A program made the position numbers and the translations under genes. Under the pieces are notes generated by a model, which saw only the letters and a list, made by a program, of their open reading frames with translations, was not told the DNA's origin and ran no database searches. Shown piece by piece: positions 1-12,666 of a stretch of DNA of 56,293 bases. The DNA comes from Siphonobacter sp. BAB-5405 (GTDB lineage: Bacteria; Bacteroidota; Bacteroidia; Cytophagales; Spirosomataceae). The stretch lies in the NCBI RefSeq assembly GCF_002872335.1, contig NZ_NJAG01000017.1, positions 1 through 56,293 on the forward strand, written 5' to 3'. Within the stretch, counting starts at the first letter, position 1. Each line of letters begins with the position of its first letter.

Positions 1-118
1 AGAAAAAGTTGAAATTTATTTTTTCAAGCTTTCCGTTGAAAACCAAACCCCTCATCCAACTTCTCACTTCCTTTCTCTCTTCGCTTTTACTGCCGACCCT
101 ACTTTCAAAACCGGACTG

Positions 119-150
119 CAAAGGTAAGTCATTTCTAAGCCGCTTGTCAA
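119..150 (-). promoter_or_regulatory. Bacteroidota-type promoter, inner copy of a tandem pair
   Basis: On the minus strand TTGACA (145-150) is followed after 18 bases by TACCTTTG (119-126), a full match to the Bacteroidota -7 consensus TAnnTTTG. An A/T-rich stretch at 151-178 lies upstream, like an UP element. It fires leftward out of the window. The same arrangement is repeated at 274-305. Confidence 0.75.
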
Positions 151-273
151 GAAAAAAGTGAAAATTTATTTTCAGCTTCTTCGCTTCTTTCCACCGCCTC
201 ATCCCTCGCTTAACTGCCTTTGCCTCAAGTGTTTACACCGTCTTTCCAGTGCCTTTCCCGTCGTTTGGGAGTG

Positions 274-305
274 CAAAGATAAGCTAAGAAAATCCCCCTT
301 GTCAA
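274..305 (-). promoter_or_regulatory. Bacteroidota-type promoter, outer copy of a tandem pair
   Basis: On the minus strand TTGACA (300-305), an 18-base spacer and TATCTTTG (274-281) repeat the design of the copy at 119-150, about 155 bases upstream of it. An A/T-rich tract follows at 306-330. No gene lies downstream inside the window, so the target is off the left edge. Tandem strong promoters of this kind are typical of rRNA operons; the target itself cannot be seen. Confidence 0.75.
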
Positions 306-480
306 GTGTGAAATCAAAGTTTTTTTAAAATCCTCTAACTCATTACTGATTATCAGAATTTTAAGTCCAAAAAAAGTTGCGATGCGATTCAAAAAATCCA
401 CATCCACTGCCCCTTTTACCTCAGTATCTTCGTCAAAACATTCCTTACGGGTAGCTAGTTTCTACGGTTTGGGCCTTTAC

Positions 481-517
481 GAAAGGAGCGACTGTTTGAT
501 GAACAGTCGCTCCTTTC
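481..517 (-). terminator. Long hairpin downstream of trpA
   Basis: A perfect 16-bp inverted repeat (481-496 with 502-517) encloses a 5-base loop. It lies about 117 bases beyond the trpA stop and before the outward promoters, so it probably ends trpBA transcription. There is no clean U-run on either strand, so it is not a textbook intrinsic terminator. Confidence 0.5.
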
Positions 518-633
518 AAGTTCTATAATCGTAATCTCGCTTCTAAGTCAGGTTACTCAGGTCCTATAAATCGTTTCGGTACCTTAAGCTCGTTTACTAG
601 ATCCCTTCTATTTATATATATAGTATACTCTAT

Positions 634-1422
634 TTATATAATAGTAACAGGACCTTTGATTCCCTGTACGAATGTTTGAATGGTACTGGGTAAATCGCTG
701 CCTTGACTAATGGCTTTGATAAAGGCACTTCCGATAATAGCTCCGTTAGCATTTTTGCTGGCCTGCTCGAAAGACTGATTATCGGAGATACCGAATCCGA
801 TCAGACGCGGATTTTTCAGGTTCAGGCTGGCAATGCGGTCGAAGTAGGCTTCCTGTTCGGCACTGATGCCCGTCTTGGCTCCGGTGATACTGGCCGACGA
901 TACCATATAAATAAAGCCCTGCGATACCTCATCGATATACTGGATTCGTTTTTCCGTGGTTTGCGGCGTAATCAGGAAGATGTTGAGCAGACCGTATTTT
1001 TCAAACGTAGGTTTGAATTCTTCTTCATAGACATCCGCCGGAATATCGGGTAGGATTAGCCCATCTACACCTACCTCCTGACACTTCTGACAAAAGGCCT
1101 CCACACCGAACTGAAGTACAGGATTGATATAACCCATCAATAATACAGGAACGTGGATCTCGTCCCGCATGCCTTCCAGCTGACTAAACAAGACTTTCAG
1201 CGACATGCCATTTTCCAGAGCCCGTTGATTGGAAGCCTGAATGGTTTCCCCATCCGCTACCGGATCCGAGTACGGCATTCCGATTTCAACTAAGTCGGCC
1301 CCTGCTTCCTGCAGATTCTTTAAAATGGTACGCGTATCGTTGAGCTGGGGGTAACCCGCCGTAAAATAGACATTGAGCAACTTTTGCGATTGCTGCTGAA
1401 AAAGTTGAGTAATGCGATTCAT
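634..1422 (-). CDS. trpA: Tryptophan synthase alpha subunit
   Basis: TrpA splits indole-3-glycerol phosphate into glyceraldehyde 3-phosphate and indole, which is channelled to TrpB in the cytoplasmic alpha2-beta2 complex. The 262 residues match the usual family length. The catalytic acids are visible: Glu46 in LVEIG and Asp57 in SDPVADG. Near the C-terminus GFGISDNQ and GSAFIK form the phosphate-binding loops. It starts with ATG 27 bases after the trpB stop, so both are translated from one message controlled by the attenuator in front of trpB. The last codons run into an A/T-rich repeat but the C-terminus has a normal length. Confidence 0.97.
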   Translation of the reverse strand: MNRITQLFQQQSQKLLNVYFTAGYPQLNDTRTILKNLQEAGADLVEIGMPYSDPVADGETIQASNQRALENGMSLKVLFSQLEGMRDEIHVPVLLMGYINPVLQFGVEAFCQKCQEVGVDGLILPDIPADVYEEEFKPTFEKYGLLNIFLITPQTTEKRIQYIDEVSQGFIYMVSSASITGAKTGISAEQEAYFDRIASLNLKNPRLIGFGISDNQSFEQASKNANGAIIGSAFIKAISQGSDLPSTIQTFVQGIKGPVTII

Positions 1423-1449
1423 CGATTGCTTCGGTTTGATGGTTGGGGC

Positions 1450-2664
1450 TTACAGGTATTTCATATAGGTAGCTAAATCCTTATCACCGCGACCGGACAG
1501 ATTCACTACGACTACTTCATCGGGCGAAGCATTCAGGGTTTTCAGGCACGCCAGAGCATGGGCGGATTCCAACGCCGGAATGATTCCCTCCAGTTTAGCC
1601 AGCTGAAAGCCGGACGCCAGGGCTTCTTCATCCGTAATGGCCTTGAAGATGCCGCGACCGCTCGTCGCCAGGTTGGCGTGCATGGGACCGATTCCCGGAT
1701 AATCCAGACCCGCCGAAATCGAGAAGGGTTCTACGACCTGGCCATCTTCCGTTTGCATGAGGATACTGCGACTTCCGTGTAAAACACCGGGTTTCCCTAG
1801 GAAAGTAGTCGCTGCCGAATGGCCCGATTCCACGCCCTTACCCGCTGCCTCTGCCACTACTAATTTCACCGATGCATCGTTCAGGAAGTGATAGAAAGCA
1901 CCTGCCGCATTGGAACCGCCGCCAACGCAGGCAATTACATAATCGGGCAACTCAGAACCCGTTTTTTCGGCGAGCTGATTGCGTACCTCTTCCGAGATGA
2001 CCGACTGGAAGCGGGCTACCATATCCGGATACGGGTGCGGACCTACGACACTACCTATTATATAATGCGTATCGACGGGGTTATTAATCCAGTGACGCAT
2101 GGCTTCGTTGGTCGCATCTTTCAGCGTACGCGAACCGCTCGTGGCGGGTCGTACTTCCGCACCCAGCATTTTCATCCGGGCTACATTGGGAGCCTGCCGT
2201 TCGATGTCGATTTCGCCCATGTATACAATACATTCGATACCCATCAAAGCACAAACCGTCGCCGTTGCTACGCCGTGCTGACCAGCTCCGGTTTCGGCTA
2301 CGATTTTGTTTTTACCCAAACGCTTTGCCAGCAGAATCTGACCGATGGTATTGTTGACTTTGTGAGCACCGGTATGACAGAGGTCTTCCCGCTTGAGATA
2401 GATTTTCGTGTTGTACACTTCCGAAAGACGTTCGGCAAAGTACAAGGGCGTTGGGCGACCGACGTAATCCCGTAACAGGTATTCAAATTCAGCCTGAAAC
2501 GAAGGATCAGCCATGATCGTTAAATAGTTCTCCCGTAACTCTTCTACGTTCGGGTACAACATTTCAGGAATGAAGGCTCCACCGTAAGGTCCGTAATATC
2601 CCCGCTCGTTCACCTGAAAAGCACTGGTAACCTGGTCTGCAATTTTCATACGATTCGAATGCAT
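1450..2664 (-). CDS. trpB: Tryptophan synthase beta subunit
   Basis: TrpB is the PLP enzyme that condenses indole with serine to make tryptophan. The 404 residues hold the PLP lysine in HTGAHKVNN (Lys102) and the phosphate-binding GGGSN motif near residue 245. The N-terminal [13 protein letters not shown] segment is typical of TrpB1, the partner of TrpA. The ATG at 2664 lies 9 bases past the U-run of an intrinsic terminator, and a second in-frame ATG lies five codons further on. The gene is therefore expressed only when transcription reads through the attenuator. Biosynthetic genes trpC and trpF are 8 kb upstream, beyond a Sus-type locus. Confidence 0.97.
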
Positions 2665-2678
2665 TGGCTAATAAAAAA

Positions 2679-2702
2679 CCCGCTGTTCGGCTGAACAGCG
2701 GG
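2679..2702 (-). terminator. trpBA attenuator terminator
   Basis: On the minus strand a perfect 10-bp stem (2693-2702 with 2679-2688) closes a 4-base loop and is followed by six U (2673-2678), then the trpB ATG at 2664. Its left arm plus loop (2689-2698) can instead pair over 10 bases, two of them G-U, with 2741-2750, which spans the last codon and stop of the leader peptide. That is the terminator/antiterminator switch of classical ribosome-mediated attenuation. Confidence 0.88.
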
Positions 2703-2744
2703 CGTGTATATAAGGACTAGTCCATGTACGCAAAAGAGGGCTGC
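2703..2744 (-). promoter_or_regulatory. trp leader region between leader peptide and terminator
   Basis: Contains the antiterminator strand start (2741-2744), the 8-base strand 2729-2736 that pairs with 2777-2784 inside trpL, and a GGACTAGTCC palindrome (2714-2723). Together these set up the alternative folds of the attenuator. Confidence 0.6.
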
Positions 2745-2798
2745 TCAACCGAGATTTCTCAGCTGCCACCACCATGCTTTTGCGAATGAATTGTTCAT
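2745..2798 (-). CDS. trpL: trp operon leader peptide (17 aa, three tandem Trp codons)
   Basis: A short frame from ATG (2796-2798) to TGA (2745-2747) encodes MNNSFAKAWWWQLRNLG. Three consecutive Trp codons lie at 2766-2774. A ribosome stalled there leaves 2741-2750 free to pair with 2689-2698, which blocks the terminator at 2679-2702. A ribosome that reaches the stop codon covers 2741-2750 and lets the terminator form. A further 8-bp pairing (2777-2784 with 2729-2736) brackets the Trp codons and could fold when no ribosome is present. The peptide is too short for ordinary gene finders. Role inferred from layout; the family logic is that of enterobacterial trpL. Confidence 0.88.
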   Translation of the reverse strand: MNNSFAKAWWWQLRNLG

Positions 2799-2824
2799 GT
2801 TTCGTTTGAAATACATTGATAAGG

Positions 2825-2832
2825 CAAACTTA
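2825..2832 (-). promoter_or_regulatory. Probable -7 element of the trpL-trpBA promoter
   Basis: TAAGTTTG on the minus strand matches TAnnTTTG exactly and would start RNA near 2818, about 20 bases before trpL. It lies after the susD stop at 2911, so trpBA would have its own promoter. No good -33 TTG is visible at the right distance, so the call rests on the -7 box and position. Confidence 0.5.
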
Positions 2833-2910
2833 AAAGTTTTTTGTTTTCTACCCTATTACTTACTTCATAATTTTCATAGGAGTAGTTTAGAAATCCCATT
2901 CGCCGCCTTC

Positions 2911-4725
2911 CTATTCAATCTTCGTCAAAGCCGGAACGTTTTCCTCGTAACCCGAGTACCCTTTGTTCTGATTGATTCGTCCCTGTGTATTGGAGCGAAT
3001 GGCGTTGCGGGGAATCGGCCAGAGCACGTGATACGGACTCATGGTATAGCGATCGCCATGGTTGGTTACGACGCCTTTGTTGTAAAACTCATTCTTCTCC
3101 ATGATCCGATCGTAGAAAAAATTGTTTTCCGAAAAGTTCTCCAGATTGTACGTTTTCCCATTGTAGGCCGCCTTTCCGGTCAGGGCAAAGAGATACGCCA
3201 TACGGGTTAGCTCCGTTTTACGACCTTCTTCGTAGTACAGCTCCCGAGCACGCTCATCGAGAATGGTACCGATGTTGACATCCGCCGGAGCCATTTCCTT
3301 CGCTCCCGCCCGCGTCCGTACGGCATTCAGGTCCATTGCGGCACTAGCGAGATTACCTTTCCAGTAATAGGCTTCCGCTCGTAGTAGATAGGTTTCGGCC
3401 AGGCGGAATACGTACCAATCCGAGTTACCGCCACGAGCAGGTTTGGTCTGCGGATCGGGTACGTATAGCTTATAATGCGGCCAGCCAAACCAGCTTCGGA
3501 TGGTATCTGTACTCAGGCGTACGCCAGTGGCGTTGTAGAGTTGCAGGGGTTTCCCGTAATAGGGATCGTTGTTCTTTTTCAGGTCCGGATGGTTGTACAC
3601 CAGATCTTCCATCGTCATCCAGTTGCCCTTCACGTGGCGTAAGTCCTTGGGGTCCGTCCAGATGTTTTGGGTACTGTAGCGAGTTCCCCGGCAACGGCCC
3701 AGGCCGCGACCGTAGATGGTCGACTGGTCCAGTTCAATGTCGGCGGCGTCGCTGGTGCCTTTGCGACCACTGGGCGTATTGATCGTGTTGTACCACTGCG
3801 GTACGGTTTGCCGCATAATCTGCATGCCGCCTTCAAAGTTTCCATCCATATTGATGCGGTCGATGACCAGCATCAGAGCTTCGCGGTTTTCGGCCAGTGA
3901 TTTGTTTTCTGGACGGTGCAAATCCCAGATCACGTTGCGGGAGGCGTTATTCCGGTCCACGCCAAAACGGTTTTTCATTAACGTGTACACGCCTCCGTCG
4001 ATCACGTTACTAGCCGACTTGATGGCATCGTCGAATTTGCCGAGAGCCAGATTTACTTTCGTCAGCAAGTGACTAACGGCCCCTTTGGTTACTTCGCCCT
4101 TGTCCACATTGTCGGGTACCCACTGCTCGGCAAACTCCAGGTCTTCTTTCATTTGCTGTAAGATGACCTCGCGTTTGGTGGAATAGAAATCCAGCTTGGG
4201 TTCCGTAATTTCTTTCAGGATCAAAGGAACGTCCCCGAATTGCTGGGTCAGTTTGTAGTACCGATACGCCCGGTGAAAATAAGCTTTCCCAAGTACCGCA
4301 TTCCGTTCCACTTCCGAGGCATACTTGGCATCATCAATCCGGGAAATGACTACGTTGGCGTACTTTATGCCCTTAAATCCTTCATACCAGTACCAGCCAA
4401 TCTTATTGTAGTCCGTCGAATTCAGGTTCGCGTCGGGCGTAATCATCAGGTTCAGGTCCTGAGCCGGACCTGATTTATCGGTCGTTCCTTCGATGGCTAC
4501 TTCCGAAAATATGGTTTCCGTGATGATCGGGGCTCCGTCGCCGTACCATTCGTACCGCATGTTCCGAAGGCAGGCCACCAGGGCTCCTTCCATGCCATTG
4601 GCATCGATGAACGTGTTTTCGGGAGCGTAAAAAGAGAGCGGTTTGGGGGTCAGCCAGTCTTTGGCACACCCACTACCCAGGGCCAGCAAAGCCGCCAGCA
4701 GTACGCCATTGGTATATTTTTTCAT
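2911..4725 (-). CDS. SusD/RagB family nutrient-binding outer-membrane lipoprotein
   Basis: SusD-type proteins are surface lipoproteins that cap a SusC barrel and capture the substrate. The 604 residues begin with a lipoprotein signal whose lipobox ends in LGSGC (Cys20), followed by an acidic/Pro-containing tether. Helical TPR-like regions with the conserved [19 protein letters not shown] stretch near residue 150 and the C-terminal RagB part ([13 protein letters not shown], then [12 protein letters not shown]) are clear. It starts 21 bases after the susC stop, a normal SusC-SusD pair. No glycosidase, protease or other degradative enzyme lies nearby, so the substrate cannot be named. The gene stands between trpF and trpB, which is unusual. 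Confidence 0.93.
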
Positions 4726-4746
4726 ACGTGTTTCGTCTAGAGGCTT

Positions 4747-7700
4747 TTACAAAGTCAGATTTAATCCCAGCGTATAAGTTCGTGGGGTAGGTCCGGTGAT
4801 GGCGTTGTTATCCGAATCCCGTAAGCCGTTTTCCGGATCCCAGTAATTCCATTCGGGAGCGTAGAAGCCTACGTTCCGAACCGAGAAATAAGCCCGTACC
4901 CGTTGCATATTCACTTTCTGAATCAGTGCTTTCGGGAGGTTGTAGGACATGGAAATATTGTCCAGTCGAACGAATGACTTCTTGCGGTAGACGCTGAAGT
5001 TGGCACTTCCATTGCTGGAGGCCAGTCGGGCGTAGTCGTTGGTAGGGTTCTCCGCGGTCCAATACGGAAACACATACGAAGACGTTCGATCGGCTAAACC
5101 CTGATTTTTCGCCATATTGTACGAACTCACGTGTCCCCAGTACGAGTACATCATAAAGGAGATGTCGAAGTTTTTGAACAACGTAAATTCATTACGTAAC
5201 GTCCAGCGGAATCGCGGTGCCGTGTACCCCAGAAACTGTCGATCGGCATCGGTGTACTTATAATCGCCGTTGACATCCTGTACTTTGAAATCACCGGGTC
5301 GTACGCCGTACTTCGCTGCTTCCTCGGATTCGGAGGTTTGCCAGACGCCAACCACTTTCTGATCCCATACGCGGTCCAGAGCCTGGCCGATGAACCAGCG
5401 GTTCGAAATATCATCGGCTTCCCGCTGACCCGTTACATTGCCGTTCGCATCGGTTACATTGATTTTATCGCCGTAGAGATGTACTACCTTATTACGGTTA
5501 AGCGAGAAGTTGACACTAGCCCGCCAGGAGAAATTCTGCTGCTGGAGAATACGACCGTTCAGGTTCACTTCCATCCCTTTGTTCTGTACTTCACCCAAGT
5601 TATCCCAGACGTAACTGAAGCCCAGAATGTCGGGCAGCGTCCGTTGCACCAGCAAATCCTGGGTAGACATGCGGTACATTTCCAGCGAACCGTCCAGCTT
5701 TCCGTTGAATAGTGAAAAATCCAGACCGAAGTTATAGGCTGTGGTTTTTTCCCATTTCAGGTTCTTATTATTCATCCGGTTCACGTAGAGCTGGGATACC
5801 TGATACACCGTTCCGTCGTTGCGAACCATCAGGTATTTACCCGTCGTCAGATCAGAAAGGGCGACGTACCGACCAATATCCCGGTTTCCGTTGATTCCCC
5901 AGGACAGACGAAGTTTTCCGTAATTGAGCCAGGAGCTTTTGGCGAAATTTTCATCGCTAAATACCCAGCCCCCCGCAATGGAAGGGAACCAGGCCCGTGG
6001 ATTGGCCTGCCCGAACGCCGAATAGCCATCCCGGCGTACGGATAAGGTCAGCAAGTATTTTTGCTTGAGTGAATAGAACAGTCGTCCCATCAGAGCATCG
6101 GCGGTACTGTACTCATCATTACTACTTACGATGGGATTGATACCAGCCTCCACGCGGTGATAGCCCAGGTTATCGCTGGGTTCGAAACCGTTATTGCGGA
6201 TGCTATTGTTCCAGCTCTGGAATTTCTCCGCGTTGATCAGCATCGTCACATCGAAGTTGTGGATGTCGGCAACCGTTTTATTCCACTTGAACAAGTTATC
6301 AACCTGCCAGTTGTACACCATATTCTGCTCCCGCGAAGCCCGTCCGCCCACATTAGCCCATTCGGGGTGTTTGGACGATTCGTGGTTGAAGTTCCGGTAC
6401 CACTCAAACCGGGGAGTGAAATTGACCTGATACGTAATCCCCAGCGGCAAGGTCACCTTGGCAAACAGCGTAGAGATCAGCGTATTGTATTTCCGAAGCC
6501 GATCGGTGTATGTCATGGACAAAAAGGGGTGGCGACTACCGCCGCCGGGATCGTCCTGCGGGCTCCAGCGGTAATTGCCCTGAGCATCGTATTCGGAACC
6601 GTAGGGCGAGGCTTTGGTAATCTGCGTCCAGTCGGCGGCTACCTGACTTTCATCCCGGTCGGAGAACTGGGCGTTGATCCCAGCAGAAAGGAAGGAAGCG
6701 ATTTTACCCTCTAAATTGAACCGGGAACGAATGGTCGAAAACTTATCGCCAGTGATGATCCCTTCATTATTCAGATACCCCAGCGAATAGTAGTACGAAA
6801 TGTCGTTTTTCTTTCCGGAAATGCTGACGTTGTAATCCTGCCGACGGGCCGCCTGAAACACTTTATCGTACCAGTTTACCGACCGTCCAGCCTTGTAGTT
6901 TTCAATCTCAATCGGTTGAAATTTCAGGCGGTTCAGCCAGACGTCCGTTGGGTTACCCGTTGATCCGTCGTAACCCAGCCATTGCTGTAAAGGCACGTCC
7001 GAAGGCAGGTTATCCGGATTGGAAAACTGGTACGGCTTGGCATTTACGTTCTGACTTCTCAGCACATCTTCCCGCCAGCGTACGTAGCCTTCCGGACTGT
7101 ACACGGGCTGATTGCGAGCGACTGTACTGATGCCCACATTTCCATCTACACTGATGGTCGGCTTTTCACTTTTGCCCCGTTTGGTCGTAATCAAAATGAC
7201 CCCACTGGCCGCTTTTGCTCCGAATACGGCGGCCGAACTGGCATCTTTCAGTACGTCGAGGGTTTCAATGTCATTCGGGTTGATGTCCGACAGGGCTCCG
7301 TAATAAATGACGCCATCGACGACTAACAAGGGCGAAGAACTGGCATTAAGCGAAGTCCGGCCGCGTACCTGCAAATCACCTCCACCTTTCGCCGAAGCAT
7401 CGTACCCTACGTTCAAACCGGCAGCATTGCCCCGGAGCATGTCCTGTACGGTATTCGGATTTTCGTTTTCAATCTGAGCCGCCTTGATTTGGGATACAGC
7501 CCCGGTTAGATCCCGCTTTTGCTGGGTTCCGTAACCGATGACCACTACTTCCGTAAGGGCCTGCGTCGTTTCCTTGATCGTAAAATCGACGACGGATCGG
7601 CTACCGACTTCCACTTCTCCTCCCTGGTACCCAATGGATGAAAACACCAGAATAGCACCCGATTCGGGTACGGAAAGCTTGTATTGCCCTTTGCTATCGG

Positions 7701-8190
7701 TCGTCGTACCGCGGTTCCGATCTTTGATCTGAACGTTTACGCCGGGAATGGCCTGCCCTTTCTCATCAACGACGGTACCACTGATGATCCGATCTTTCGG
7801 AGCTACGTCGACCAGCTCTTCCGTAGTGTTGACCCGCCGGAGAATCACCTGATGATCGATCAGTTCGTAGGTGAGGTTATTCGGACGCAGCAATCGTTCG
7901 AGTACCGTTAGCAGAACTTCTTCGTTGGCATTCAGAGAAATAAGTCGATTGGCCTGAATGAGCTGGGGACTGTACATGAACCGTATACCGGCCGTCTGTT
8001 CAATCTTTTCAAGTGCTTTTTCCATATTCAGATTGGAAACATGCACGGTAATCTTCTGATTAAGTACTTCCTGGGCACGGCCATCTTTCGCCAGCGAAAG
8101 CGTAGCAAAGACGGTGGCCAGAATGAATTGTGGTAGAGCGATTCGCATGATTTTCAGCAGAATCCGACAGGAATGTCTACGTTTTACCAT
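4747..8190 (-). CDS. SusC/RagA family TonB-dependent outer-membrane receptor with STN domain
   Basis: A 1147-residue TonB-dependent transporter. From the ATG at 8190 the order is signal peptide, STN domain (KITVHVSNLNMEKALEKIEQ), a CarboxypepD_reg-like beta sandwich (GTVVDEKGQAIPGVNVQI), plug domain beginning TEVVVIGYGTQQ, and a C-terminal barrel ending in aromatic/hydrophobic residues. The STN domain means it can signal inward through the FecR protein encoded next to it. An in-frame ATG at 8313 would add 41 residues in front of the signal peptide and its codon lies inside a hairpin, so the inner start is preferred. Cognate SusD follows directly. The substrate is unknown. Confidence 0.93.
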   Translation of the reverse strand: MVKRRHSCRILLKIMRIALPQFILATVFATLSLAKDGRAQEVLNQKITVHVSNLNMEKALEKIEQTAGIRFMYSPQLIQANRLISLNANEEVLLTVLERLLRPNNLTYELIDHQVILRRVNTTEELVDVAPKDRIISGTVVDEKGQAIPGVNVQIKDRNRGTTTDSKGQYKLSVPESGAILVFSSIGYQGGEVEVGSRSVVDFTIKETTQALTEVVVIGYGTQQKRDLTGAVSQIKAAQIENENPNTVQDMLRGNAAGLNVGYDASAKGGGDLQVRGRTSLNASSSPLLVVDGVIYYGALSDINPNDIETLDVLKDASSAAVFGAKAASGVILITTKRGKSEKPTISVDGNVGISTVARNQPVYSPEGYVRWREDVLRSQNVNAKPYQFSNPDNLPSDVPLQQWLGYDGSTGNPTDVWLNRLKFQPIEIENYKAGRSVNWYDKVFQAARRQDYNVSISGKKNDISYYYSLGYLNNEGIITGDKFSTIRSRFNLEGKIASFLSAGINAQFSDRDESQVAADWTQITKASPYGSEYDAQGNYRWSPQDDPGGGSRHPFLSMTYTDRLRKYNTLISTLFAKVTLPLGITYQVNFTPRFEWYRNFNHESSKHPEWANVGGRASREQNMVYNWQVDNLFKWNKTVADIHNFDVTMLINAEKFQSWNNSIRNNGFEPSDNLGYHRVEAGINPIVSSNDEYSTADALMGRLFYSLKQKYLLTLSVRRDGYSAFGQANPRAWFPSIAGGWVFSDENFAKSSWLNYGKLRLSWGINGNRDIGRYVALSDLTTGKYLMVRNDGTVYQVSQLYVNRMNNKNLKWEKTTAYNFGLDFSLFNGKLDGSLEMYRMSTQDLLVQRTLPDILGFSYVWDNLGEVQNKGMEVNLNGRILQQQNFSWRASVNFSLNRNKVVHLYGDKINVTDANGNVTGQREADDISNRWFIGQALDRVWDQKVVGVWQTSESEEAAKYGVRPGDFKVQDVNGDYKYTDADRQFLGYTAPRFRWTLRNEFTLFKNFDISFMMYSYWGHVSSYNMAKNQGLADRTSSYVFPYWTAENPTNDYARLASSNGSANFSVYRKKSFVRLDNISMSYNLPKALIQKVNMQRVRAYFSVRNVGFYAPEWNYWDPENGLRDSDNNAITGPTPRTYTLGLNLTL

Positions 8191-8241
8191 AAATTTGAAC
8201 GGGTTTGTTGGTTCTCCAGAATTAGCAAATACAATCCCTTC

Positions 8242-8259
8242 CATCCGTTCCAGCGGATG
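8242..8259 (-). other. Hairpin with CTGGAA loop upstream of susC
   Basis: A perfect 6-bp stem (8242-8247 with 8254-8259) encloses a 6-base loop that reads CTGGAA on the minus strand, the same loop as the larger hairpin at 8294-8321. It lies in the leader between fecR and the preferred susC start. Confidence 0.45.
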
Positions 8260-8293
8260 TTCCGGTCGACCGAAAAATGAAGGGGAAAAGACC

Positions 8294-8321
8294 ATCGGCG
8301 AATGTTCCAGCATTCGCCGAT
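8294..8321 (-). other. 11-bp hairpin between fecR and susC
   Basis: A perfect 11-bp stem (8294-8304 with 8311-8321) encloses the loop CTGGAA (minus strand). On the minus strand it is followed by GGTCTTTTCCCC, so it could act as a weak terminator after fecR that lowers readthrough to susC. On the plus strand six T follow, but no plus-strand gene needs ending here. Confidence 0.5.
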
Positions 8322-8407
8322 TTTTTGGTCAGGCAAGCAGCACTACTTCATAGATCAAGCAAGAGGTTTAGCGTATATAGGTTTAGAGATTAAGCAGAAA
8401 AGTTTCT

Positions 8408-9478
8408 TCAACGACAGCCCTGGCCTTTCACGGTAATCAGACTATCGGTCAGGGTATAACTAGCTTCTACGGTACGGCAGATTAAATTCATTTTTTCTGA
8501 AAGCGGCTCATCCCCAAGCAAAGCCGTCAGTTGGCAGTTACCCAGTGTTTCTTTATCGTAGCGAATGGTAACGCCGTAGGCCTTTTCCAAGGTGGCAAAC
8601 ACCTCCGATAAGGGCGTTCGCTTGAAATCAAAATTCAGTTTCTGAATGGGCAAGGGTAAATACTCGGGCGTTTGAACATTCGTAAACTTTAGTTGATCGG
8701 ATTGATACGTCAATTGCTGATTGGGTGTCAGTATTAGGCCGGTTAGCTCCGTACTCGCCTGGGCGGCTTCCTTATCCCGATCCGGGAACAAGGCTACGCG
8801 GCCTGTTTTTACAATCACCGTCACATTGCGGTTTCGAGCAATGATGTTGAAACTCGTCCCAAGTACCTTGGCTACCAGTCCCTGTGCATATACAAAAAAG
8901 GGTTGCTTCGGGTTTTTAGCGACTTCAAAGAAAGCCTCCCCTTCCAGTATAACTTCCCGGCGGGCCGGATCAAACGATTTAGGTACCCGAATCCGGCTCT
9001 GGGATTGTAGAAGTACGGTACTGCCATCGTCGAGCGAAAGTAATAAGGGCCTTGATCCGGTATTTTCCTTTTCCCAGAAAGGAACCTCCTCGAACCGTTG
9101 ACTGACCAGCGATACCGTTTCTTCTCGTCCAGATTGATAAAACAGCCAGCCTGCCACCCCTAAACTCAGCACCAGTACCGCCGCTACCCTGGAGACTATA
9201 CGCGGCCAGTTGATCAAGCGACGCGGCGTACGCTGCCGAGCGGTTTCGACTAATCGATTCATTTCTTCGTCCACCTCTTCTTCCGCCACGTCTTCATACG
9301 CTTCGTGCAACGAAAGAATCCAGTTACGGGCTTGCGTCATGGCCGCCTGCTGCTGGGGGTGCGTGGCATAATACGTTTCCCAGAAGGCTTGCTCTTCCGG
9401 CTGGGCCTTCTTCAGTATCCACTGCTGAAAGGAATAATCCTGGGCAAACGCGTTTGCTCCGTATGAAGAATAATCCAT
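8408..9478 (-). CDS. FecR family anti-sigma/signal transducer
   Basis: FecR proteins span the inner membrane, bind an ECF sigma factor in the cytoplasm and receive the ligand signal from the STN domain of a TonB receptor. This 356-residue protein has an N-terminal cytoplasmic part, one membrane segment at about 93-112 (VAAVLVLSLGVAGWLFY), a FecR domain at about 120-230 (LLLSLDDGSTVLLQSQSRI, VILEGEAFFEVAKN) and a C-terminal DUF4974 domain at about 285-353. It lies between its sigma factor (168 bases upstream) and susC. A small inverted repeat, TACTGT-5-ACAGTA, at 9490-9506 sits just in front of its start. Confidence 0.93.
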   Translation of the reverse strand: MDYSSYGANAFAQDYSFQQWILKKAQPEEQAFWETYYATHPQQQAAMTQARNWILSLHEAYEDVAEEEVDEEMNRLVETARQRTPRRLINWPRIVSRVAAVLVLSLGVAGWLFYQSGREETVSLVSQRFEEVPFWEKENTGSRPLLLSLDDGSTVLLQSQSRIRVPKSFDPARREVILEGEAFFEVAKNPKQPFFVYAQGLVAKVLGTSFNIIARNRNVTVIVKTGRVALFPDRDKEAAQASTELTGLILTPNQQLTYQSDQLKFTNVQTPEYLPLPIQKLNFDFKRTPLSEVFATLEKAYGVTIRYDKETLGNCQLTALLGDEPLSEKMNLICRTVEASYTLTDSLITVKGQGCR

Positions 9479-9646
9479 AGTTGAGGCGTTACTGTATGAA
9501 ACAGTACCTTCTCTCCTAGTTCTACTGATGTTTTTGTAAAAATTTTATAAAAAATAGTGAAATGCCCGCAAAGTCTTCACGGACGCTCCATTAGTCCTCG
9601 GTAAAAACCCGGTCTGTTAGGAAGAAGAGCTACTAGTTGGCAGCTG

Positions 9647-10261
9647 TCAATCCGCTGACAAAAGCTGGTACAGGGCCAGAAAGAAGAGATTAGACTCGGG
9701 TATCCAGGAAGTCTTTAATTGTTTGAGAGCCGAATGCAGCAGATTATAAACCGACTGCGGATTGATTTTCATGACCTCCGTAATTTCCTCCGCACTCAAG
9801 CCTTCGTAAAAGCGTAGGAAAATAATTTCCTGCTGACGGGGCGATAATTGAGCCAATGCTGCTTTAAGCCGATCCTGATTTTCCTGGGAAACCTCCCACT
9901 GAATCGTCTGACTTTCGGGCGTCAGCCAGTCGGATACATCCTGGCTTTCCACAGATTCAGCCTCCAGGAGCCATTTATCCTGCCGAAGTTTTCGCAGTAA
10001 ATTATTACGAAGGGCTTTCAGTAAGTAAATGGTCACGAAGGGTGATTCGCGGAGGCCTTCCCGTCGGCTCCATAATTCCAAGAATAAATCCTGAATCCCA
10101 TCTTTGATGAATTCCCGGTCTTTTGTAAACTGAAGACCATAGTTAAAAAGTAGCCTGAAGTGCGAACGTGCCAACACCCCTAATGCCTCGGCATCCCCGG
10201 TTTTAAAGCGTAGCCAAAGCTCGTTCTGCTCCTGTTCAGATAATTCCACTTTCTTTTTCAT
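9647..10261 (-). CDS. RNA polymerase ECF sigma factor (FecI-like)
   Basis: A 204-residue sigma-70 family protein with only regions 2 and 4, as in ECF factors. Region 2 is at about 28-95 (DREFIKDGIQDLFLELW) and region 4 at about 140-190 (LSPRQQEIIFLRFYEG, then a helix-turn-helix SAEEITEVMKINPQSVYN). It is followed by fecR and susCD, the standard order for surface-signalling uptake loci in Bacteroidota, so it probably drives susCD when the receptor is occupied. Starts with ATG. A terminator at 10372-10407 separates it from trpF, so it forms its own unit. Confidence 0.92.
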   Translation of the reverse strand: MKKKVELSEQEQNELWLRFKTGDAEALGVLARSHFRLLFNYGLQFTKDREFIKDGIQDLFLELWSRREGLRESPFVTIYLLKALRNNLLRKLRQDKWLLEAESVESQDVSDWLTPESQTIQWEVSQENQDRLKAALAQLSPRQQEIIFLRFYEGLSAEEITEVMKINPQSVYNLLHSALKQLKTSWIPESNLFFLALYQLLSAD

Positions 10262-10371
10262 GGGTAGAGCCGGGTAGTAATAGCCGATGGGTAGCTAATG
10301 CAGTTGCTAAAAAGACATTAAATATAACTATTTCACCTACGAATTGTACGAAACATTTTGACTTTTCACAA

Positions 10372-10407
10372 AAAACCGCCTTCCCGAATATACGAAAAGG
10401 CGGTTTT
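10372..10407 (-). terminator. Intrinsic terminator after trpF
   Basis: An 11-bp stem (10372-10382 with 10397-10407) with a 14-base loop. On the minus strand it ends in a run of six U. It lies 20 bases beyond the trpF stop and ends the trpC-trpF unit before the sigma factor gene. Confidence 0.85.
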
Positions 10408-10427
10408 CTAGTAATGACTAATCACGC

Positions 10428-11075
10428 TTATGCTTCAATCGCTTCCACTTTCAGTCGTTCGATGAATGCCCGAAGTGCTTCGATATTTTTAATACCGGGC
10501 TGCGTCTCGAATTTGCTATTGACATCAACGGCGTGAATCCGGAGGTTACTACGTTCTTTCAGTTCCAGAATCGTTTCGGCATCTTCCAGGCCAATACCGC
10601 CCGACAGGAAAAAAGGCTTTTCGTTATCGTATCGCTCCAGCAAACGCCAATCGAAGGAAAGACCTGTGCCTCCATACTCGGCCGCTTTGGTATCGAATAA
10701 AAAGTAATCGCAAACGGGTTTATAATTGTTCAGTTGTGTAAAATTGAATGTCTCATCTACCCGAAAAGCTTTAATAATGTTAATCCCTTTAAATTGAAGG
10801 CTCCGGCAAAAATCCGGCGTTTCCTCTCCGTGTAACTGCACAAAATCCAATCCGTATTTTTTCACCGTACGCAGAATCTGATCGATACTGGCGTTGACAA
10901 ATACACCCACTTTTCGACTGGACTTCGGCAGATCTTTGACCACCTCGGCGTCAAGCGTCTCCCCCATAAACCGGGGCGACTTTTCGTAAAAAATGAACCC
11001 TACGTAATCCGGTTGTAACTCGAGTACGTCCCGAAGGTTTTCCTCCTCTTTCATTCCGCATACTTTAATTCGCAT
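10428..11075 (-). CDS. trpF: Phosphoribosylanthranilate isomerase
   Basis: TrpF performs the Amadori rearrangement of phosphoribosylanthranilate to CdRP, the step before TrpC. The 215 residues fit the single-domain enzyme. The catalytic Cys is in the N-terminal KVCGM motif (Cys6) and the catalytic Asp region is probably LFDTKAAEYGGTG near residue 125. The phosphate-binding motifs are FLSGGIG and VDVNSKFE. It starts 49 bases after the trpC stop and is closed by its own terminator, so trpCF and trpBA are separate transcription units here. Confidence 0.96.
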   Translation of the reverse strand: MRIKVCGMKEEENLRDVLELQPDYVGFIFYEKSPRFMGETLDAEVVKDLPKSSRKVGVFVNASIDQILRTVKKYGLDFVQLHGEETPDFCRSLQFKGINIIKAFRVDETFNFTQLNNYKPVCDYFLFDTKAAEYGGTGLSFDWRLLERYDNEKPFFLSGGIGLEDAETILELKERSNLRIHAVDVNSKFETQPGIKNIEALRAFIERLKVEAIEA

Positions 11076-11124
11076 AGGTGTCTCGGATTTATAGGTTCAA
11101 CAAAGGGGAAAAACGGTACGTACG

Positions 11125-11925
11125 CTATAAGGTTACGTATTGCAAGCCTCCCACCAAGTCGGCCAGGGCGTTTCCGGGAACGGGCGTTTTCATGAAGTTT
11201 TCTCCAATCAAAAAGCCCCGGTATCCGGCTGCGTATAACTGATGAATCGTCTCCACACTGCTCAGGCCACTTTCTGACACTTTAACAAACTCATTGGGGA
11301 TTTGTTCAACCAGTTGCAGCGAGGTATCAACTGAAACCTGGAACGTTTTCAGGTCCCGGTTATTGACGCCCACCAGGTTCAGATGCGGGTTCAGGCTGCG
11401 TTCGAGTTCTTCCTGATCGTGTACTTCCAGCAGTACTTCCAGATTCAGGGATTGAGCAAACTGTCCTAAGTGCTTGATTTCTTCGGGACTGAGGCAGGCG
11501 GCAATCAACAGAATAACGTCGGCACCCCAGGCTTTGGCTTCCAGAATCTGGTACTCATCCACGATGAAATCCTTGCGTAGGATCGGCGTTTTAGGGTTCG
11601 ATTTACGGGCCAGCTTTAAATCGTCAGCATCTCCGCCGAAAAACTCTTCGTCCGTCAATACCGATAATCCCGCGGCTCCGGCCTGAGCGTAGGCCAGGGT
11701 CACTTCTTCTACCTGTACCCGATCGTTGATCGTACCTTTCGAGGGTGATTTACGTTTAAACTCGGCGATGATTCCCGTGGAGTTTTCTTTCCGTAACTGA
11801 CCGCTCAGCGAATTTCCGGTACGGCTAAAAGCGGGAAACAACTCCAGTTCGCGGGCTGCAATGTTGGCTTTGGCCTGGGAAATTTCTTTTCGTTTGTGCA
11901 GAACGATCTTTTCAAGAATATTCAT
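11125..11925 (-). CDS. trpC: Indole-3-glycerol phosphate synthase
   Basis: TrpC closes CdRP to indole-3-glycerol phosphate, the substrate of TrpA. The 266-residue (beta/alpha)8 enzyme shows the catalytic lysine motif IAEFKRKSPSKG near residue 54, a second lysine in ILRKDFIVDEYQI, the VNNRDLKTF strand and the C-terminal phosphate site SESGLSS and FLIGENFMK. It is not fused to trpF. Its ATG lies 24 bases after the pseudouridine synthase stop, with no promoter or leader peptide visible between, so it is probably cotranscribed with that gene. Confidence 0.96.
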   Translation of the reverse strand: MNILEKIVLHKRKEISQAKANIAARELELFPAFSRTGNSLSGQLRKENSTGIIAEFKRKSPSKGTINDRVQVEEVTLAYAQAGAAGLSVLTDEEFFGGDADDLKLARKSNPKTPILRKDFIVDEYQILEAKAWGADVILLIAACLSPEEIKHLGQFAQSLNLEVLLEVHDQEELERSLNPHLNLVGVNNRDLKTFQVSVDTSLQLVEQIPNEFVKVSESGLSSVETIHQLYAAGYRGFLIGENFMKTPVPGNALADLVGGLQYVTL

Positions 11926-11949
11926 AGGGGTAGATACGGTACTGACTGG

Positions 11950-12666
11950 TTATCCGTGAAAAATAGCTTCGTTTACTTCTTCATCAAATTCCAGGAATTC
12001 TTCCCAGAACGAATTTTGGGGTACGGCCGCTTTGCAGATAATCGGTTCATTCTTGATGGGATGAATGAAGTACAGGCGGCGAGCGTGCAGGTTAATACTG
12101 GCATCGGGGTTCGGCCGGGGGTACCCGTATTTCAGGTCCCCGCGAATGGGGCAACCCATGGAAGCCAATTGTACGCGAATCTGATGCGGACGACCCGTAA
12201 CCGGATTTACCTCCAGTAAAAAGTGGTGGTTCATCTCGCCAATCAGCTTGTACGTTAGCTCGGCTTTCTGCGAACCGGGCCGTTCGTAATCATACGCCGT
12301 TACAACGTTTCGGGCTTCGTCTTTTACGAGCCAGTGCGTTAGTTTACCGCTTTTCTGCTCGGGGCGTTTGCCCACTACCGCCCAGTAGGTTTTCTGAATA
12401 TCCCGACGACGGAAGAGTTCGTTCATCCGTTCGAGTCCTTTCGAGGTACGGGCAAACACGACCAGACCACTCACCGGGCGGTCCAGACGGTGTACCGTGC
12501 CCAGAAATACGGCTCCGGGTTTATTGTATTTTACGCTGATGTAGTCTTTAACGTAATCGGAAAGAGTCTTGTCACCCGTTTGATCCCCCTGCACCAACAC
12601 GCCGGCGGCTTTGTTGACGATAATCAGGTGGTTGTCTTCGTAGACGACATTAAATGGTTTTGCCAT
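11950..12666 (-). CDS. RluA-family RNA pseudouridine synthase
   Basis: A 238-residue enzyme that isomerises uridine in rRNA or tRNA. The catalytic motif HRLDRPVSGLVVFA holds the essential Asp near residue 75, and HQIRVQL is the usual C-terminal motif. The S4 domain found in RluD is absent; the length suggests the RluA/RluC-like or TruC-like branch, so the target base cannot be named. The ATG at 12666 is preferred over an upstream TTG at 12690, because a TAACTTTG promoter box lies at 12688-12695. It leads the trpC-trpF unit. Confidence 0.9.
   Translation of the reverse strand: MAKPFNVVYEDNHLIIVNKAAGVLVQGDQTGDKTLSDYVKDYISVKYNKPGAVFLGTVHRLDRPVSGLVVFARTSKGLERMNELFRRRDIQKTYWAVVGKRPEQKSGKLTHWLVKDEARNVVTAYDYERPGSQKAELTYKLIGEMNHHFLLEVNPVTGRPHQIRVQLASMGCPIRGDLKYGYPRPNPDASINLHARRLYFIHPIKNEPIICKAAVPQNSFWEEFLEFDEEVNEAIFHG

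Follow-up and report, generated by a model that had tools for sequence, protein, structure and literature searches.

We have studied the leader of the trpB gene of Siphonobacter sp. BAB-5405, in a stretch of 56,293 nucleotides (contig NZ_NJAG01000017.1) that is referred to below as the window. The leader is very probably a ribosome-mediated transcription attenuator that controls trpBA via charged tRNA-Trp. The original prediction had claimed this function, and it is by far the best reading of the element, supported by its relatives and by co-adapted stems. The kind of leader is known; the novelty lies in a second copy, placed on a detached trpBA pair, for which there is a parallel in another phylum.

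The whole leader is encoded on the minus strand, in the gap that separates the SusD stop codon (2911) from the trpB ATG (2664), and its elements are collected in Table 1. A -7 box, a 17-codon frame containing three Trp codons (WWW), a terminator and two alternative pairings had been predicted here, and all of them were confirmed on this strand, coordinates included. The 8-mer TAAGTTTG, which we take to be the consensus -7 promoter box of the Bacteroidota type, is found upstream of all 11 Siphonobacter leaders. Within the family, TANNTTTG is present no more than 70 nt upstream of 77 of 97 leaders, compared with 389 of 11336 background windows. A promoter scan using an E. coli-type consensus listed no site that fits. 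The peptide might also be read as 23 codons from an ATG at 2816. This is possible in the window, and the codon is AAG in the closest relative (G002); the ATG at 2798, by contrast, is present in 11/11 Siphonobacter leaders.

Table 1. Positions of the leader elements and neighboring genes in the window
Feature	Position	Strand	Evidence
Promoter -7 box TAAGTTTG	2832-2825	minus	sequence
Leader peptide ORF, 17 codons, MNNSFAKAWWWQLRNLG, ATG to TGA	2798-2745	minus	sequence; start and Trp codons kept in 11/11 Siphonobacter leaders
Three consecutive Trp codons TGGTGGTGG, proposed sensor	2774-2766	minus	sequence; invariant in Siphonobacter leader alignment
Strand 1 of bracketing helix, CGCAAAAG	2784-2777	minus	pairs with 2736-2729; folds; co-adaptation across genera
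3' partner of bracketing helix, CTTTTGCG	2736-2729	minus	folds; co-adaptation across genera
Strand 2, antiterminator 5' strand, GGTTGAGCAG, contains leader stop	2750-2741	minus	pairs with 2698-2689
Strand 3, CTGTTCAGCC, common to antiterminator and terminator	2698-2689	minus	pairing tests, folds
Intrinsic terminator: 10-bp stem, loop of 4, U6	2702-2673	minus	terminator scan, shuffles, folds
trpB, tryptophan synthase beta chain	2664-1450	minus	Pfam PALP
trpA, tryptophan synthase alpha chain	1422-634	minus	Pfam Trp_syntA
Sigma factor, FecR, TonB-dependent receptor (SusC-like) and SusD genes	2911..10261	minus	Pfam; between trpF and trpB leader
trpF	11075-10428	minus	Pfam PRAI
trpC	11925-11125	minus	Pfam IGPS

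The helix that brackets the Trp codons comprises 8 pairs, and the antiterminator 10 pairs, two of which are G-U. The leader stop codon (TGA, 2747-2745) falls within strand 2. The terminator arms CCCGCTGTTC (2702-2693) and GAACAGCGGG (2688-2679) are followed by T6 at 2678-2673, and nine bases separate the end of this tract from the trpB ATG.

How would such a leader work? It has a short ORF with consecutive codons for the amino acid of the pathway, as is characteristic of the class, together with an antiterminator and an intrinsic terminator that are mutually exclusive by sequence and by calculation. Transcription would begin near the TAAGTTTG box, and a ribosome would start on the 17-codon leader. 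At low tryptophan the ribosome should stall on UGGUGGUGG, covering strand 1 (CGCAAAAG together with the bases just past the Trp codons). Strand 2, left uncovered by the stalled ribosome, would be able to pair with strand 3 when the latter emerges, so that no terminator would form and trpBA would be transcribed. With ample tryptophan the ribosome would reach the UGA and cover strand 2, whereupon the 3:4 hairpin could form and transcription would stop 9 nt before trpB. Where there is no translation the 1:2 helix would tie up strand 2, with termination by default. We infer that the leader is translated, that the hairpin terminates transcription in Siphonobacter, and that the system responds to tryptophan.

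The enterobacterial trp leader has a peptide with Trp codons, an antiterminator that competes with a terminator, and termination 5' of the first gene, and the full logic of trpL had been proposed for the Siphonobacter leader. As a statement about mechanism this likeness stands. The layout differs from the enterobacterial one, since in Siphonobacter strand 2 includes the stop codon, and strand 1 is located just 5' of the Trp codons. Homology to trpL was not detected, the Rfam Trp_leader model (RF00513) giving 14.7 bits (E 2.4) on 2600-2910 against a cut-off of 41.

To assess chance, positions 2665-2832 were shuffled 20,000 times with dinucleotide content preserved. A single shuffle gave a short frame that starts with ATG and encodes WWW; none gave a Watson-Crick hairpin of 10 bp followed by 6 or more T in 8, and none gave the two together. 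The frame and hairpin are thus not a joint product of chance. Folding of 2665-2816 gave z = -3.45, with one of 200 shuffles equally stable. A terminator scan of positions 1-12000 listed the hairpin of the trpB leader first among 7 sites, a total that is below the shuffle mean of 14.0.

Folds were also calculated with a ribosome footprint, holding unpaired the first base of the occupied codon together with the 18 nt upstream and the 13 nt downstream of it. With the ribosome at the first Trp codon the leader adopted the 2:3 antiterminator, even at full length. With the ribosome at the third Trp codon, 2:3 formed in the transcript that ends before strand 4, and the terminator was preferred in the full-length fold (-24.8 kcal/mol). 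The terminator was likewise obtained with the ribosome at the stop codon, or with no ribosome at all. The calculated fold therefore switches with the position of the ribosome.

The genus was sampled with six Siphonobacter genomes, including that of the window (G000). All six have the leader before trpB. The gene upstream of it is SusD in G000, trpF in G003, and one common other gene in G001, G002, G004 and G005; the leader is thus kept while the upstream gene varies, showing that leader and trpB travel together. A homologous leader is found before trpE in five of the six genomes; trpE itself is missing from the assembly of the other one, G003, which is 92% complete. In the genome of the window the trpE copy lies at G000:C91:56531-56675 and encodes MNVSFAKAWWWQLGSLR. 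All 11 leaders, of trpB and trpE together, encode WWW. A degenerate WWW pattern allowing at most one mismatch gave 11 matches in the six genomes, every one before trpB or trpE; with two mismatches there were 7 further matches at other places. The 2:3 pairing is conserved over the 11 leaders, with 97.3% of 110 cells paired as against 16-45% in six slid registers. Within the genus alone there is no both-sided change in the 2:3 helix (0/10 pairs), and its covariation is not above that of shuffles (402/500).

The two sets of copies differ in their hairpins. The U-tract has at least 6 residues in 6/6 trpB copies. In the trpE copies the stems have 16 to 20 pairs in four of the five, and the U-tract is poor in four of the five, the exception being G001 with U6. 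The trpE hairpin of the window's own genome is interrupted, and in the trpE copy of G001 a single base is deleted past the Trp codons, which shifts the stop downstream. Some further features of the trpE loci may be recorded. There is hardly any U-tract at the trpE attenuator hairpins of L097 (3532-3676), G002, G004 and G005. Between the trpE hairpin and trpE, at about 3695-3745 of L097 and also in G002, a tRNA-like stretch with a D-arm and a partial anticodon arm can be made out by eye; neither ARAGORN nor Rfam called a tRNA in it. The TrpE match L106 (G005:C8:2742-4172) has, by the search, one in-frame TAA.

A leader copy outside its usual place could be a decaying relic of rearrangement that no longer regulates, leaving trpBA to its promoter alone with partial read-through. 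Loss of such leaders is evidently tolerated, given that in genus g27 three of the six regions sampled have no trpE leader (see below). Against decay, all 6/6 trpB leaders retain WWW, the stop codon, strand 2, strand 3, the hairpin and the U-tract while identity over the whole element falls as low as 64%, and the trpB copies are the very ones with at least six U residues throughout. We therefore consider a decaying relic very unlikely, and favor a functional attenuator.

We extended the comparison to the family, searching 200 genomes; TrpE was found at E <= 1e-60 in 196. From the listed coordinates 100 trpE regions were picked for genus coverage, to which L097 was added, making 101. A leader frame precedes trpE in 97 of the 101, or 97 of the 100 that have upstream sequence (L199 has none). 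L239, L240 and L243, all of genus g27, have no trpE leader; L241, L242 and L244 of the same genus have one. WW or WWW is encoded in 94 of the 97 frames, and one of these 94 (L273) has a TTG start. Not all genera end the leader with the TGA of strand 2; in several of them TAA or TAG is used instead (46 of 94 leaders counted). In genus g13, L211, L213 and L214 have a trpE leader with a single Trp codon, NGWQG in place of the NWWQG of relatives, with the hairpin kept; these provide a natural series on the number of Trp codons needed.

A model built from the 11 Siphonobacter leaders (R1) matches 148 of the 200 genomes at E <= 1. Its best matches outside Siphonobacter are directly before trpE, and the weak ones include antisense and other places. 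Applied to 29 sources, R1 gave strong matches only in the window, L003 and L004. One match, before trpC of G024, is a hairpin with a T-run that lacks a Trp frame, and was rejected as a Trp leader.

Are the proposed pairings maintained as the leaders diverge? One leader was taken from each of 31 genera, and for every strand the calculated energy of pairing with its own partner was set against that for the partners of other genera, using 20,000 permutations. The energies depend on scripted placement of the hairpin; L097, L201 and L270 were left out beforehand because of that placement, and genus g7 is absent as its hairpin was not found. For the 1:2 helix, own partners gave -7.75 kcal/mol against -5.03 kcal/mol (z = -6.9), and for 2:3, -13.48 against -11.54 kcal/mol (z = -4.1). 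No permutation among the 20,000 was as good in either case. Two control pairings, 1:3 and 2b:3, had no own-partner advantage, with 8298 and 17441 of 20,000 permutations as good, respectively. The z values are not strict probabilities because the genera are related, a relatedness that the null pairings share. The 3:4 result (z = -12.1) is circular, because each hairpin was picked by its own pairing. When the region was shuffled with dinucleotides preserved, the terminator-like hairpin with its T-run nevertheless beat 100/100 shuffles in 31 genera out of the 32, the exception being g7. Both-sided differences in 2:3 can be seen directly, with GGTTGA/TCAACC in g1, g2 and g36 replaced by GGATGA/TCATCC in g19 and g34.

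The conclusion that emerges is that strands 1 and 2, and strands 2 and 3, are co-adapted across the family. Alignment of relatives, the check suggested with the original prediction, thus gave a positive answer for both the Trp-rich frame and the covarying stems. The covariation comes from the family-wide trpE leaders, there being none above shuffles within Siphonobacter alone.

These data bear on a simpler reading of the hairpin. It lies downstream of a SusD gene on the same strand, and could be merely the terminator of that gene, with the WWW frame beside it by chance. This is exceedingly improbable. The leader and its TAAGTTTG box remain with trpB where the upstream gene is a different one, a homologous leader stands before trpE, no shuffle produced both WWW and hairpin, and strand 2 and the 5' arm of the hairpin are co-adapted across the family.

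In Rfam, RF01692 is named Bacteroidete tryptophan peptide leader RNA, and Weinberg et al. (2010; PMC2864571) list Bacteroid-trp as a cis-regulatory motif of Bacteroidetes. The Siphonobacter element answers to this description, being a Bacteroidota leader before trp genes with a short Trp-rich peptide. At the gathering cut-off (49 bits) RF01692 has no match in the window, and up to E 10 there is no Siphonobacter match in either 2600-2910 or the whole genome. Within the family the model exceeds its cut-off in six of 200 genomes, at the trpE leaders of G088, G096, G032, G078, G067 and G055; its weak matches are not all at trpE. Since a leader is present in 97 of 100 regions, the published model misses most of those in the family. 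R1 matches the same six leaders at overlapping places, with E from 1.2e-10 to 8.3e-12. In a sample of the phylum 37 of 395 genomes pass the RF01692 cut-off, and 46 match at E <= 0.01. All of the best 30 loci encode WW or WWW, 27 being located before trpE and 3 before trpB. In the three trpB-first loci trpE follows directly after trpB, which differs from the detached trpBA with its second copy in Siphonobacter. By the Rfam rule the Siphonobacter leader is not a member of RF01692. It is a diverged relative, connected through the chain of homology provided by R1, and probably works alike. The leader is neither an isolated case nor of a new kind, in the light of the trpE homologue in the same genome, the near-universal trpE leaders of the family, and RF01692.

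Candidate attenuators were predicted in 2005 before trpB1EDGC and trpB2A of Corynebacterium diphtheriae (PMC1262725). There are, as in Siphonobacter, two candidate Trp attenuators per genome, one of them before a trpBA pair. C. diphtheriae is of another phylum, and trpB is named twice there, whereas Siphonobacter has one strong TrpB and an operon in three pieces. In the open-access literature of one library we found no description of this Siphonobacter trp arrangement.

The leader had been placed within the trp gene order, following a Sus locus. The second part is correct, with SusD and TonB-receptor genes upstream by Pfam. The first part must be revised, for there is no intact operon, and the leader heads the detached trpBA of a split trpEGD/trpCF/trpBA set. 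The trpE, trpG and trpD genes were confirmed by Pfam at a second locus of the genome, so that the Siphonobacter trp genes are in three pieces, leader-trpEGD, trpCF and leader-trpBA. In G003 trpCF and leader-trpBA are neighbors, the distance from trpF to the leader being about 290 nt. There is a single strong TrpB match in the whole Siphonobacter sp. BAB-5405 genome; the protein is closest to those of uncultured Siphonobacter MAGs (91% identity, in a comparison from which own-genome records may be excluded). The sigma factor, FecR, TonB-receptor and SusD genes are outside the attenuator. The leader is expected to control only trpBA, which is consistent with the gene order. The trpCF piece has no WW frame within 450 nt upstream, and so no Trp leader.

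This absence of a leader from trpCF leaves room for control in trans, as in the split trp regulon of Sinorhizobium where a leader RNA acts in trans. The leader RNA might act similarly on other trp genes in Siphonobacter, or control might be exerted on the translation of trpB, whose start is only 9 nt from the end of the U-tract, rather than on termination. A U6 tract right after a 10-bp hairpin does however provide what intrinsic termination requires, and we regard control by either of these other means as quite improbable. Termination in cis remains our preferred mechanism.

How widespread is the second copy? In the regions fetched, trpEGDCFB or trpEGDCFBA is in one piece in 19 of 32 leader-bearing genera. 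The operon is split in g1, g8, g15, g20, g21, g22, g31, g33 and g34, the remaining genera being cut by contig ends or unclear. No trpE-type leader was found on 21 detached trp pieces of other family genera, 15 of them trpC-first and 6 trpD-first. The trpC-first pieces come from 24 non-Siphonobacter trpC places. In seven trpC is not the first gene (it is preceded by trpD in six g31 genomes, and by trpG and trpD in G034), and G032 and G062 were dropped, having only 192 nt and no upstream sequence, respectively. None of the 15 true starts has WWW; a 29-amino-acid WW frame 431 nt upstream of trpC in G038 was taken as chance. There is no leader upstream of trpD in the six g31 genomes. At 78 non-Siphonobacter loci, where trpB is often inside the operon, no frame with WW starts from ATG in the 450 nt upstream of trpB; L061 has one that starts from GTG, which was taken as chance. 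In thirteen of these loci the sequence ahead of the trpB block extends for 150 nt or more, counted from the first gene of the block, and none of them has WW; the other 65 are cut or short, and some of the 13 duplicate contigs of the G-numbered genomes.

In a tree of the leaders, the 11 from Siphonobacter and the trpE leader of G037 (genus g33) form one clade (100/99), with no branching order among the Siphonobacter leaders. The simplest account of the distribution and the tree is that trpBA acquired its leader in the Siphonobacter lineage, as a copy of the one that precedes trpE. We infer the direction and date of the duplication, because the tree leaves the order within Siphonobacter open. 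Both leader copies of G001 have AAATTGTTT(T)ATAAGTTTG around the promoter box, and this shared sequence suggests that the promoter came along with the copy.

The surroundings of the two loci offer a possible route. Positions 1-306 of the window, downstream of trpA, are repeated at 98% at the end of the trpEGD contig (G000:C91:60918-61223) and at two more contig ends (the repeat-bearing loci are L360, L361 and L365). In C227 a full-length 16S rRNA gene has a copy of the repeat adjoining its 5' side; the trpBA contig of G003 ends within the 5' part of a 16S gene. G001 and G004 have weaker repeats at the ends of both of their trp contigs. A first Rfam search for rRNA in this neighborhood was negative; positive results came from the repeat search and from a second search with Rfam. 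From the repeat and the 16S positions, it appears that both leader-bearing trp pieces are directly followed by rRNA operons, where the assemblies break. Recombination between such operons may have given rise to the split and the copy, but taken alone it does not explain how the leader arrived between trpF and trpB. We tentatively propose, at somewhat less than an even chance, that in an ancestor of Siphonobacter a complete cassette of promoter box, leader and terminator was copied from trpE to the detached trpBA, perhaps by such recombination, restoring joint control by tryptophan, and that the copies have since been tuned differently.

The Siphonobacter leader provides an example of regulation following genes as an operon breaks up. 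Several genera of the family have split their trp genes, and among the pieces checked only the trpBA of Siphonobacter bears a copy of the trpE leader. With two paralogous attenuators presumably responding to one signal in one cell, their set points would be directly comparable.
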